A stretch of 64,000 nucleotides of DNA from Paenibacillus amylolyticus (lineage in GTDB: Bacteria; Bacillota; Bacilli; Paenibacillales; Paenibacillaceae): assembly GCF_029689945.1 (NCBI RefSeq), contig NZ_CP121451.1:1178001-1242000 (forward strand). The letters are read 5' to 3'. Below are positions 36,126 to 40,894 of this stretch, piece by piece. A program made the position numbers and the translations under genes. A model generated the notes under the pieces. It was not told the origin of the DNA, made no database searches, and saw only the letters and a program-made list of their open reading frames with translations. Every line of letters begins with the position of its first letter. Position 1 is the first letter of the stretch.

Positions 36126-36161
36126 TGAATATGATCCTATATGGTTGGGAGTGAATGCGTT

Positions 36162-37586
36162 ATGGACACATTTATTGCGGATGAAGACCTTCAGGTGATC
36201 GTACATGTGAATGATAATGGAGAGAGAACGACGATAACAGGAGGCATTACCACTCAGGATTTTGAAGTCATCTCTACATATGCAAGGGGATGGCTGACCT
36301 TCGCGTATCTCCGTGATCGTCAAGGCATATGGTGGTTCAATGCCCGTAAGAACAAGGCGAGTTTGTTCAGCCGGGATACGGAAGCTTTTCGTATAGTCGA
36401 TGAAGATTACTGCTGCGATTCCGAATACGTCTATCTGGAAGATCAGGCTGTGCCTGGCTCTGACCCGAACAGCTTTCGGCTGTTACCGGATACGCCCTAC
36501 TTTGCACAGGACCAACGTTATTTATATGTGAAGAGCAGCCAGCATTTTCATCTATTTGAGGATATCGATACGAATGCTGTGATTGCTTACCACCACTACT
36601 GCACCGACAAGGATCACTTATTCCATCTGTCCAGCTCTCTTCGCTATGCGAATGGGGAAAAGGATGAGGTGAGGGCATGGTTGCGTGAACATCATCCCGA
36701 CGTACCTGGCTGGTGGCAAACGGATTATGCCCACAGTGCTGATGGAGCTGTGCAGATCACAGGCAATTGGTTTGAGACTGCATCGTCTATTTTTTATAGA
36801 ACCGAATGGGGCGGTACCCCGCATCGAGAAGCAAAAGCTGTGTTCAACCTTGTTCGAGGGGCGGACAGACCTACCTATGAACCATTGGATGAACAGTTTG
36901 CACGGGACCGGGAGCGTGTTTATTTTCAGTGGCGCACTGTAAAAGGAGCAGACCCCGACACATTCCAACCACTAGGTGGACCTTTTGGACGTGACCGCAA
37001 TCATGTGTATTACAACGGATACCGTGTCGATAAGGCAGATGTTCGGCATTTTGAAGTGTTTGCCGGGACGGGGCATCTCGGACTTTCCAAGGGTCAGCAA
37101 CATGTATATCGTGCAGAGGTTGTGCGGACAAGTCAGCCTTTCGGTCATCCAGACGATGTGCTTCAGATCGTTAAAGGGGCTGATGCAGCGACGTTTGAGT
37201 TAATAACCCCTTCTGGAAGCTGGGCGGTGGATGCCAATCGGGTATATCTATGGGGTAAACCAAATAAACATATTGATCGTGCCAGCTTTACACATCTATT
37301 CGATGCTGATCCCCAGAGTTGGGCTATGGATCAGAATGGTCTGTATAATGCCAATGGCAAGCGTACGGTAAAGGGTGTAAACGGTAGTACATTTGTCATG
37401 CTGAACGAATATTGGGGCAAAGATGACCTTGTGGTGTTCAGCTTTGTAACGGGGAGTGTATACAAGTCGGGGGACGTAGCGACGTTTCAAGTTACGGATG
37501 ATATCGGGGGCGCGGAAGATGCTTTGTATCGGTACACGGTGGAAGGCAGTACAGTGCGGAAACAGAAGAGGTTGATCGAAAAGTAA
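36162..37586 (+). CDS. DKNYY-repeat protein
   Basis: About 474 residues built from repeats of the DKNYY type: FAQDQRYLYV, CTDKDHLFHL, FARDRERVYFQWRTVKGADPDTFQPL, FGRDRNHVYYNGYRVDKADVRHFEV, WAVDANRVYLWGK, WAMDQNGLYN. There is no signal peptide, so it is probably cytoplasmic. ATG 36162 follows GGGAG; the alternative ATG at 36141 has no ribosome binding site. It starts 36 nt after the FRG gene and is probably co-transcribed with it. Function of the family is unknown. Confidence 0.78.
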   Translation: MDTFIADEDLQVIVHVNDNGERTTITGGITTQDFEVISTYARGWLTFAYLRDRQGIWWFNARKNKASLFSRDTEAFRIVDEDYCCDSEYVYLEDQAVPGSDPNSFRLLPDTPYFAQDQRYLYVKSSQHFHLFEDIDTNAVIAYHHYCTDKDHLFHLSSSLRYANGEKDEVRAWLREHHPDVPGWWQTDYAHSADGAVQITGNWFETASSIFYRTEWGGTPHREAKAVFNLVRGADRPTYEPLDEQFARDRERVYFQWRTVKGADPDTFQPLGGPFGRDRNHVYYNGYRVDKADVRHFEVFAGTGHLGLSKGQQHVYRAEVVRTSQPFGHPDDVLQIVKGADAATFELITPSGSWAVDANRVYLWGKPNKHIDRASFTHLFDADPQSWAMDQNGLYNANGKRTVKGVNGSTFVMLNEYWGKDDLVVFSFVTGSVYKSGDVATFQVTDDIGGAEDALYRYTVEGSTVRKQKRLIEK

Positions 37587-39524: not shown

Positions 39525-39633
39525 CGGTTGCTCACCTCTCATCCTTTTGAATACATCTATACCTATGGACGTTACTTGGGACGACGATGTTCCCGTTTAT
39601 CATTAAAAAGAGTCAAAATCATTCCATTCAGTC

Positions 39634-39662
39634 TGGAACTGGGATATGGAATATGTTAGCAT
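39634..39662 (+). promoter_or_regulatory. Probable extended -10 promoter of the mph leader
   Basis: TGGAAC (39634-39639), a 17-nt spacer ending in TGT, and TAGCAT (39657-39662) form an extended -10 promoter. Transcription would start near 39669, placing the leader ribosome binding site ~12 nt into the RNA. Confidence 0.5.
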
Positions 39663-39692
39663 AGGGGTAACTTACTGAACGGAGGGATACGT

Positions 39693-39719
39693 GTGCTAAA
39701 TTTTTCCCGATTGAGATAG
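39693..39719 (+). CDS. Macrolide-sensing leader peptide of mph (8 codons, ends Arg-Leu-Arg)
   Basis: GTG start with GGAGGG at 39681-39686 (6-nt spacing); reads MLNFSRLR and stop. The C-terminal Arg-Leu-Arg is the +X+ motif at which ribosomes carrying erythromycin-type macrolides stall (known from ErmD-type leaders). It lies ~235 nt upstream of a macrolide phosphotransferase gene, with a terminator and alternative pairings in between. It acts in cis as a drug sensor; the peptide itself probably has no other role. Confidence 0.75.
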   Translation: MLNFSRLR

Positions 39720-39812
39720 TGTGGCGAAACGTTTGTTTACGCTTGCTGTTTTCTGCCTGTGTGCAGTTCATCGGGATTGGTTTGCCATGGTACACGTATG
39801 CCGCTAGTCATG

Positions 39813-39840
39813 AAAGAATCACTCTCTAAAGTGGTTCTTT
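39813..39840 (+). other. Additional hairpin inside the mph leader
   Basis: AAAGAATCACT and AGTGGTTCTTT form a stem with one mismatch around a short loop. It lies between the two antiterminator arms and would shorten the distance between them. Confidence 0.5.
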
Positions 39841-39896
39841 GGTGTACTACTATTTTTTTGTGAGCATTCAGGTATGCCAACTTCCGAAATGAGCTG

Positions 39897-39924
39897 CACA
39901 GACGAACTTTGTCTGTGTTTTTTT
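39897..39924 (+). terminator. Leader terminator upstream of mph
   Basis: CACAGAC-GAACTTT-GTCTGTG followed by TTTTTTTA ends only 30 nt before the mph start codon. A terminator directly in front of a gene is the hallmark of conditional attenuation. Confidence 0.85.
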
Positions 39925-39954
39925 ATTTTATCCAGGAAAAGGGGAGTACCTGAT

Positions 39955-40894
39955 ATGACAAAATCGAAATTGAATGAGCATCATGCAATTGAAAAGGAAC
40001 TATTAACTTTAGCGAAACAGAATGGACTTCTTATCCTTGAGGAATCCTTGGACATCAACGAGTCGGGTATGGATTTTCGTGTAGCATTCGCCATGGATGA
40101 AGAAGGCCGCAGATGGGTTCTGCGCCAGCCGCGACGGCAAGACGTCTGGGAGCGTGCCGAGAATGAGCAAAAGGTGCTGAATGTGGTCCGAGGAAAACTA
40201 CCTGCACAGGTACCGGATTGGCGAATCTGCACGCCAGAGTTGATTGCTTATCCTTTACTTGAGGGTGATCCGATCGCAATTGTGGATCCCGCGGGGGAGG
40301 GTATGTGTGGCGATTCCCTCAGGAAAACTTGTCTGATGTGTTCCTGGATTCACTGGCTACGACTCTCGTTGCACTGCATAATATTGATCCCGACAAGGCA
40401 AAGGAAGGCGGAGTGAGGGTCAAGACTCCGATGGAGGCCCGCAAAGAATTTGCAGCCAATATAGAGGAGATCAAGCGGAACTTTACAGTGCCAACGGAGC
40501 TGGTTGAACGCTGGACGGTATGGCTTTCTATGAATAGCTATTGGCCTCAGCATTCGGCGTTCATCCATGGTGATCTGCATCCGCCGCATATAATTGTTGA
40601 TGATGCCCAGCGAGTAACCGGACTTATTGATTGGACGGAAGCGGAGATTGCAGATCCGGGTAAGGACTTCGTCATCTACTATGCACTTTTTCAGGAGGAT
40701 GGACTGCGTGAGCTTTTGAATCGTTATGAGAAGGCAGGGGAAGAACATGGCCCCGGATGCTGGAGCATATTCGGGAACAATGGGCAGCCTATCCTGCGAT
40801 TGTTGCCAAGTTTGCGCTAATTACGGGCAAGGAGTCGGACATGGAGATGGCGAGAGGCATGCTTGCGAACTGGGAAGTGAAGAGGGGTGAGTAG
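39955..40894 (+). CDS. mph: Macrolide 2'-phosphotransferase (two frameshifts)
   Basis: About 313 residues after correction. A kinase-like fold: FAMDEEGRRWVLRQPRRQDVWERAENEQKVL (nucleotide-binding Lys/Arg and Glu region), AYPLLEGDPIAIVDPAGEGYVW, catalytic loop FIHGDLHPPHIIVDD, metal-binding GLIDWTEAEIADP, and a C-terminal helical region AAYPAIVAKFALITG. This arrangement is typical of Mph enzymes, which phosphorylate the desosamine 2'-OH of macrolides using GTP. Lost G at 40299-40301 and at 40737-40740 break the raw frame. AAAAGGGGAG precedes ATG 39955. Expression is probably macrolide-inducible through the upstream leader. The TAG stop abuts the GTG of the next gene. Confidence 0.85.

Follow-up and report, generated by a model that had tools for sequence, protein, structure and literature searches.

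The gene mph, which encodes a macrolide 2'-phosphotransferase in Paenibacillus amylolyticus, is preceded by an RNA element that is, in our judgement, very probably a ribosome-operated transcription attenuator. The same RNA chassis, fitted with exchanged sensor open reading frames (ORFs), very probably also serves hflX paralogues, erm, msr ABC-F genes and macrolide esterases in Bacilli. We analysed the element in a stretch of 64,000 nucleotides (nt), called the window here (assembly GCF_029689945.1, contig NZ_CP121451.1, positions 1,178,001 to 1,242,000, forward strand), and give positions within that stretch. The basis for this reading is the anatomy of the element, its conservation, covariation in two helices (P1 and P3), the placement of a terminator before the gene, and an effect of ribosome position seen in computed folds of roughly half the mph and hflX relatives.

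A leader ORF and a probable attenuator precede mph

The leader ORF (39693-39719; GTG CTA AAT TTT TCC CGA TTG AGA TAG, read from the sequence and checked by script) begins with GTG and encodes eight codons, MLNFSRLR, with an ErmDL-type Arg-Leu-Arg (+X+) motif at codons 6-8. A Shine-Dalgarno (SD) sequence, GGAGG (39681-39685), lies 7 nt before its start. Within the leader codons, TCCCGAT (39705-39711) can form seven perfect pairs with ATCGGGA (39770-39776), the helix P1, and the antiterminator arms TGTGCAGTTCAT (39760-39771) and ATGAGCTGCACA (39889-39900) form 12 pairs, one of them G-U. A terminator stem, GCACAGACGAACTTTGTCTGTGT (39896-39918), is followed by a T-run to about 39928, and the mph ATG stands at 39955. 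In addition, 39687-39694 and 39792-39799 are complementary and make up a candidate helix, P0, which could lock the SD and start of the leader. The 292-nt region folds with z = -6.56, and 0 of 200 shuffles were equally stable.

An earlier note on this DNA had described an MLNFSRLR leader with its own ribosome binding site, an intrinsic terminator about 30 nt before mph, and two mutually exclusive pairings. The leader, its SD and the terminator are present as described, and the leader and SD are conserved. Both pairings are present as well, but the antiterminator is longer than had been proposed: in folds, 39765-39790 also pairs with 39871-39895, and the conflict with P1 therefore spans the whole AUCGGGA arm and not two bases only. 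The window thus contains a short leader ORF with its own SD, a terminator before the gene, and exclusive antiterminator and anti-antiterminator pairings that overlap the stall site, the last of these seen in the conserved pairings and in the covariation of P1. The features are as follows.

39633..39662, + strand: promoter-like block, with CTGGAA at 39633-39638 and an extended -10-like TGTTAGCAT at 39654-39662 (our own labels); kept upstream of 23 mph leaders
39681..39685, + strand: Shine-Dalgarno GGAGG of the leader ORF; from sequence and conservation
39687..39694, + strand: putative P0 5' arm, in the SD and start region of the leader; from complementarity, with moderate family support
39693..39719, + strand: leader ORF MLNFSRLR-stop, with R6-L7-R8 as the +X+ motif; from sequence and genus comparison
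39705..39711, + strand: P1 (anti-antiterminator) 5' arm, within the leader codons; from sequence, fold and covariation
39753..39766, + strand: P3 hairpin CTGCCTGTGTGCAG, core of the antiterminator 5' arm; two-sided changes across Bacilli, invariant in 23 close leaders
39753..39790, + strand: antiterminator 5' arm; from the fold
39770..39776, + strand: P1 3' arm, shared with the antiterminator 5' arm; from fold and covariation
39792..39799, + strand: putative P0 3' arm; from complementarity, with moderate family support
39803..39853, + strand: intervening hairpin; a T-run comes after it only in the window's subgroup; from fold and alignment
39871..39903, + strand: antiterminator 3' arm, overlapping the terminator 5' arm; from the fold and the alignment of close leaders
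39896..39928, + strand: intrinsic terminator stem-loop and U-tract; from sequence, fold and alignment
39955..40892, + strand: mph (macrolide 2'-phosphotransferase), interrupted in two places in the assembly; two pieces match Mph models, the tail piece lying outside the scan

The promoter-like block is absent from the listing of a consensus promoter scan, and transcription would start near 39667. The hairpin and T-run at 39815-39860 in the window's subgroup were considered as a second terminator and rejected as a conserved one, L019-L025 having no T-run.

We infer that macrolides cause the ribosome to stall, which of them do so, and that transcription then reads through. Without drug, a ribosome would translate the eight codons quickly and leave; P1, perhaps together with P0, would close over the 5' arm of the antiterminator, the terminator would form, and transcription would end some 30 nt short of mph. 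A macrolide bound in the exit tunnel would halt the ribosome, with Leu7 at the P site and Arg8 at the A site, over the P1 5' arm. This would leave 39753-39790 free to pair with 39871-39903, including the 5' arm of the terminator, and with the antiterminator formed the polymerase would read into mph.

The leader and its pairings are conserved, and P1 and P3 covary

Using the N-terminal piece of mph (39955-40308) as query, we found 33 matches in 32 of 75 genus genomes. Thirty mph loci were fetched, including the window's own and none from G044 or from G054, where the match is in two pieces, and in all 30 an SD-preceded short leader with Arg-Leu-Arg or Arg-Trp-Arg stands before mph. Twenty-four of these leaders have eight codons with R-[LW]-R at codons 6-8 and then a stop; four are of the MLI[AT]Y[IL]RLRN type and two read MCTHYMRLR. 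We aligned 23 close leaders, setting aside L013 and also L026-L031, which diverge most. In that alignment the promoter-like block and the SD are kept, as are the leader register, P1, P3 and the terminator. The earlier note had named a lack of conserved pairing arms as grounds for giving up the attenuator, the only such grounds open to computation; leader and arms are both conserved upstream of mph in other Paenibacillus, and P1 covaries. Two relatives, L157 and L158, have an intact mph leader, MANFIRWR, with no mph match in the 2.6 kb examined, and in L158 a short mph-like start remains and runs into another sequence.

For more distant members we relied on a covariance model, R1, built from 31 leaders, whose E-values are rough. 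An Mph-alignment scan of named genomes gave 208 relatives, of which the best 80 were kept. R1 has 63 matches in 86 loci, 59 of them within these 80 named loci. The matched loci include Bacillus spizizenii and B. halotolerans (leader MAFIRFRLTRIQ), whose mph is taken, by genus, to be of the mphK/ycbJ lineage named in PMC5760710. Across genome sets, R1 matches 45 of 75 genus genomes, 222 of 295 Paenibacillaceae genomes (15 of 19 genera) and 104 of 398 Bacilli genomes (45 of 145 genera), 29 of those 104 being Paenibacillaceae. A draw from the phylum gave matches in 12 of 249 genomes, four in Paenibacillaceae and eight outside the class; these eight score 27-48 bits and set a bound on the background. 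We also fetched 80 stretches around hand-picked R1 matches, favouring genus matches not already known at mph and family genomes with several copies, and these hold 85 matches. The family set is therefore 63 + 85 = 148 matches, 142 of them distinct. Membership of the leader RNA in an Rfam family was rejected, there being no match above the gathering threshold anywhere in the window and, on six loci carrying the RNA, only two T-boxes, both at other places. Spread on plasmids or phages was likewise rejected, since 39620-39960 had no match in either collection at blastn sensitivity.

RNAalifold showed no two-sided changes among the 23 close leaders, and covariation was therefore sought in more distant members. 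In a MAFFT alignment of the 31 leaders, 97% of P1 and P3 pairs are formed, as compared with 31-45% for a slid arm and 95.7% after shuffling of the letters among these rather similar leaders. Two-sided changes number 7 in this alignment against 2.3 after shuffling, and 0 of 500 shuffles were as high. For 84 distinct Bacilli RNAs, the alignment was fitted to the model, and such alignments lean towards structure: 91% of P1/P3 positions are paired, as against 33-52% slid and 79.7% shuffled, with 84 two-sided changes against 25 and a covariation score of 0.378 against 0.188, which 0 of 500 shuffles reach. Sixty distinct rows from the 86 loci agree with the covariation of P1/P3. For example, P1 reads UCUUCGAU/AUCGAAGA in esterase copies and UCCCGAU/AUCGGGA in the window. 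In 117 of 142 family members a terminator-like hairpin stands between the RNA and its gene; of 132 equal-length stretches inside the genes, 0 contain one. Shuffle tests on single sequences are weaker evidence than these alignment-based tests: p<=0.05 was reached by P1 in 48 of 142 RNAs and by antiterminator complementarity in 46 of 117. For P0 the longest stem averaged 8.98 over the 142 RNAs as against 7.20 shuffled, with p<=0.05 in 42, which is moderate support.

One RNA chassis before different resistance genes

We classed the gene downstream of each RNA by the nearest tblastn match of eight reference proteins within 2.6 kb. Among the 142 RNAs this was mph in 64, hflX in 32, erm in 18, msr ABC-F in 10 (in three of which the match starts more than 1 kb from the RNA), an esterase in 5 and a short-chain dehydrogenase in 3, with none of the reference proteins in 10. 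The 84 distinct RNAs from the picked stretches comprise 29 before hflX, 18 before erm, 10 before msr, 9 before mph, 5 before an esterase, 3 before a dehydrogenase and 10 other or none; because these stretches were hand-picked, the class counts show which genes occur and not how often. The mph, hflX, erm, msr and esterase classes are all macrolide-resistance families or hflX, and this we count in favour of the attenuator. NCBIfam models bear out these classes for the proteins scanned: two esterases lie above the macro_16_ester cut-off (465 and 433 against 420), two Erm proteins above the broad Erm cut-off, and two HflX proteins and one intact Msr above theirs; one protein, L169, had no NCBIfam match.

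Several loci are unusual. The genome of the window itself has a second R1 match (C1:4913000-4916400, L155; 29.8 bits) before an msr-type ABC-F gene, with the leader MTHAMRLRSLPLNR, close to ErmDL; the open frame of this gene is shorter than that of a relative (393 and 489 amino acids). Two tandem RNA copies stand before one erm in L185 and L187, with the leaders MIDFSR and MINDRLNRRELNN, neither of which is +X+. In L180, L181, L182, L077, L084, L104 and L250, RNA-bearing hflX relatives are located before erm or mph, and the erm genes of L180-L182 are preceded by a second RNA copy of their own. The RNA of L189, L213 and L221 has a six-codon MIDFSR or MIDSSR leader and precedes a short-chain dehydrogenase, which to our knowledge is not recognised as a resistance gene.

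The leader ORF is exchanged on a shared RNA

A +X+ leader, of the form Arg/Lys-X-Arg, is found in 109 of the 142 RNAs, with RLR in 57, RVR in 18, RFR in 11, RIR in 10, KFR in 5, RWR in 4, RSR in 2 and two other forms once each. L079, L081 and L089 (Bacillus siamensis, velezensis and nakamurai) and L231 keep the RNA with conserved leaders that are not +X+, namely MADQIPVFALMK, MASQNPVFALIK, MANQIPVFALIK and MANHIPVYALMK.

A distinct class of leader was seen at esterase genes. A search for relatives of the L161 esterase hit 45 of 245 genomes of the family and 16 of 250 of the class; of the 46 loci that we fetched, 30 carry the RNA. In these 30 copies the leader has three codons, MAN, MLN, MVN, MLI, MID or MIN, followed by TAA (once TGA). 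Read from the second GTG of CGTGTG, this ORF is in the register homologous to the mph leaders; the first GTG, which was the automatic pick in several esterase copies and gives MC-stop, was rejected for that reason. A script counted 29 of the 30, and the thirtieth, L266 (GTGTGTG), reads MAN. Three esterase copies beyond the 30 read MLN (L161), MLI (L166) and a 12-codon MVNFSRLSKHCK (L156). Of 137 non-esterase copies, 4 have a three-codon leader, and these four are all at mph; Fisher's test of 30/30 against 4/137 gives 4e-29, a value that ignores kinship and is descriptive only. Twenty-seven of the 30 esterases have no internal stop, and all 27 match macro_16_ester at E <= 4e-126, approximately the cut-off by interpolation, 25 of them also matching the BRB family model at E <= 4e-126. 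Among the 16 esterase loci without the RNA, five (L291-L294 and L297) have tlrB-like leaders, MIIKFIRLR, MIIQFIRLR or MIIKWIKQR, 116-136 nt upstream of the match.

What might a three-codon ORF sense? The 16-membered macrolides extend towards the peptidyl-transferase centre and halt chain growth at two to four residues, while erythromycin allows more. A three-codon ORF would therefore respond to early blockers only. Six esterases of this kind, including BRB-1, raised resistance to 16-membered and not to 14- or 15-membered macrolides (PMC12704417). As a loosely related hint, truncated three-residue ermB coding segments, which are not leaders, were induced by 16-membered macrolides and not by erythromycin (PMC9178857). 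Tentatively, and with some doubt on our part, the RNA chassis common to a Bacilli-wide attenuator family could carry the leader ORF as an exchangeable cartridge whose length is a ruler for drug class. Leaders of 8-14 codons with +X+ might catch tunnel-binding macrolides and ketolides, while three-codon Met-X-Asn/Asp/Ile-stop leaders might finish before most tunnel drugs matter and be caught only by blockers of the first peptide bonds, such as 16-membered macrolides. Alternatively, the three-codon ORFs may have no drug specificity and sense any early arrest.

In computed folds, a ribosome on the leader relieves the terminator in part of the family

We folded the RNAs with a 31-nt ribosome footprint held open. 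Scanning 14 of the 23 aligned close leaders, we obtained a mean terminator probability of 0.88 for the free RNA. It is 0.21 when the P site is near codon 2, 0.40 near codon 5 and 0.51 near codon 8; with the footprint at codons 17-26 the terminator is not relieved (0.98-1.00). Among 136 family RNAs with a detected terminator, in which two esterase loci are counted twice, the probability is 0.92 for the free RNA; it is 0.65 when the ribosome sits at the predicted stall and 0.94 when it sits 60 nt beyond the start of the leader. It falls by more than 0.2 in 53 of 136 at the stall, as compared with 1 at the more distant position. By class, this drop is seen in 15 of 25 hflX +X+ members, 21 of 45 mph +X+, 3 of 11 erm +X+, 7 of 27 and 1 of 3 three-codon esterases, and 2 of 4 three-codon mph copies. 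The logic that the earlier note proposed, from stall to antiterminator to read-through into mph, is supported by anatomy and comparison, and footprint relief is strongest on the leader. Folding with the leader masked, a check that the note had proposed, relieves the terminator in the family mean and not in the window, whose own RNA keeps the terminator at equilibrium, at 0.99 free and 0.98 stalled.

That behaviour of the window RNA weighs against the attenuator, and it does so together with several other results. The terminator is weakened, too, by footprints placed just ahead of the leader (0.46-0.56) or at codons 29-38 (0.70-0.85), and the effect is therefore not confined to the leader. No drop above 0.2 is seen in 83 of the 136 RNAs, and none of the 8 msr +X+ members has one. 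A clean switch is seen in only 11 of the 23 close leaders; the terminator persists in 7, and 5 hold much antiterminator when free. In the 31-leader alignment, 3 pairs have a two-sided change, which is nothing unusual, since 84 of 500 shuffles give as many. On the peptide side, 33 of the 142 members have no recognisable +X+ leader, and in 5 of the 109 that do (L075, L239, L191, L180 and L246) a lower-ranked start was taken where the first-ranked lacked +X+. Finally, changing the residues before RLR in ErmDL alleviated arrest (PMC8298421); N-terminal context matters there, and stalling on MLNFSRLR is therefore not guaranteed. The equilibrium model thus supports part of the family and not the window copy, for which co-transcriptional timing would have to carry the switch. 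With a footprint that covers the SD too, the window's terminator probability is 0.78-0.85, and an assembly indel in its terminator is possible.

The scan relieves the terminator best near codon 2, as would be expected of a general sensor of early elongation, in which any halt on the first codons, whether by 16-membered macrolides or other peptidyl-transferase inhibitors, opens the switch and Arg-X-Arg is one way among others. Leaders that are not +X+ also keep the chassis (three-codon ORFs in the 30 esterase-search and 4 mph copies, and six-codon MIDFSR-type and QIPVFAL-type leaders). Yet 109 of 142 distinct RNAs keep +X+ while its middle residue varies (RLR, RVR, RFR, RIR, RWR), which points to selection for the arrest motif among most members. 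We therefore regard such a general sensor as unlikely and prefer the macrolide attenuator.

The mph frame is probably interrupted by the assembly

The frame of mph is interrupted twice in the window, which would suit a decaying copy, with mph a pseudogene and the leader a remnant, as would the two relatives that have the leader and no mph match. At the 29 other genus mph loci the frame is open over 304-316 codons, and three intact relatives each matched eight Mph models, all below the cut-offs for exact types. We compared frames across the window, where some predicted proteins are unannotated and possibly spurious ORFs. Proteins from two relatives are interrupted in the window in 9 of 22 and 10 of 22 cases, where frame changes account for seven in each comparison and stops alone for the others; between the relatives, 4 of 25 and 2 of 23 are interrupted, with no frame change (0/25, 0/23). 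Because the frame shifts are found in the window only and none between relatives, assembly indels are the simpler cause, and on this sequence comparison they are most likely what interrupts the window mph. The completeness of the window's genome (95.84) is below that of 69 of 74 other genus genomes. With leader and pairing arms intact as well, decay of the window copy is, to our minds, quite improbable. A third account, in which the RNA itself binds the drug as a riboswitch and the ORF is incidental, could draw on the strongly conserved segments CTGCCTGTGTGCAG and CGGGATNGGTYTGCC beneath changing leader peptides, but in the window these are involved in the pairings of the antiterminator and of P1. 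The SD, the start register and the stop persist even where the ORFs differ greatly, and in +X+ members P1 falls within the leader codons, so that we consider a riboswitch highly unlikely.

The substrate range of the enzyme may bear on the choice of inducer. MphI and MphK have poor activity on C3-cladinose macrolides (PMC5760710, PMC5155152). Arrest on ErmDL depends decisively on +X+ when the drug is telithromycin, a cladinose-free ketolide, and much less when it is erythromycin (PMC8298421), and tlrB is induced through RYR by tylosin and not by erythromycin (PMC6851288). If the window Mph has the range of MphI and MphK, a +X+ leader would suit its substrates, and tylosin or a ketolide is predicted to be a better inducer than erythromycin.

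Elsewhere in the window, a 481-amino-acid protein with DKNYY repeats (Pfam) is encoded at 36141-37586, upstream of a helicase gene.

Comparison with known systems

Macrolide-inducible leaders are described gene by gene in the cited literature; for tlrB and hflXr, both of which have R-X-R leaders, attenuation has been studied by experiment (PMC6851288, PMC6310831). Leader-dependent attenuation itself is thus known (ermK, tlrB, hflXr); what is new is one RNA chassis across unrelated resistance genes, together with the class of three-codon leaders. Our literature search, which left most subscription journals and supplements outside its reach, found no description of an mph leader attenuator, of a leader for these esterases or of a shared RNA family. 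The earlier note had held a minimal arrest motif at the C-terminus, outside erm, to be novel, but tlrB (MIIQFIRYR; PMC6851288) and hflXr, which is not a methylase gene (PMC6310831), are precedents. If there is one RNA family, resistance genes of five different biochemistries share one sensor design, and inducible resistance genes throughout Bacilli become predictable from one covariance model, among them intrinsic genes that may escape gene-centred screens. As regulatory ORFs, the three-codon leaders would be very small, and they would make discrimination between macrolide classes a question of length versus drug.

The ermK gene of Bacillus licheniformis reportedly undergoes transcriptional attenuation. 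Its leader, ErmDL (ermK/ermD), has Arg6-Leu7-Arg8 at the same codon numbers as the window leader and arrests with Leu7 in the P site; it differs in having 14 codons and in controlling erm (PMC8298421). R1 finds ErmDL-like leaders in Bacilli, MTHAMRLRFPTLNQ before msr and MYSARLRFPTLNR before erm. The msrD and ermB leaders differ from the window's in their peptides and RNA structures. They resemble it as short macrolide-sensing ORFs before resistance genes (PMC10314930, PMC9178857), and in the ermB region 16-membered macrolides and erythromycin act through different parts (PMC9178857).

The tlrB (yxjB) leader of Bacillus subtilis is alike in its nine residues, MIIQFIRYR, with R-X-R at the very C-terminus; it acts by transcription and translation attenuation, and tylosin stalls the ribosome when X occupies the P site and the final Arg the A site (PMC6851288). 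In contrast, the gene that it controls encodes the RlmAII methyltransferase, and its stalled ribosome blocks the base of the terminator (PMC6851288), whereas in the window the leader stop lies about 177 nt from the terminator and a separate antiterminator is predicted. In Listeria, hflXr (lmo0762/rli80) has a 14-amino-acid leader containing RLR and alternative terminator and antiterminator structures (PMC6310831). Relatives of hflX follow 32 of the 142 RNAs examined here, and shared ancestry of the RNA with Listeria rli80 is a lead.

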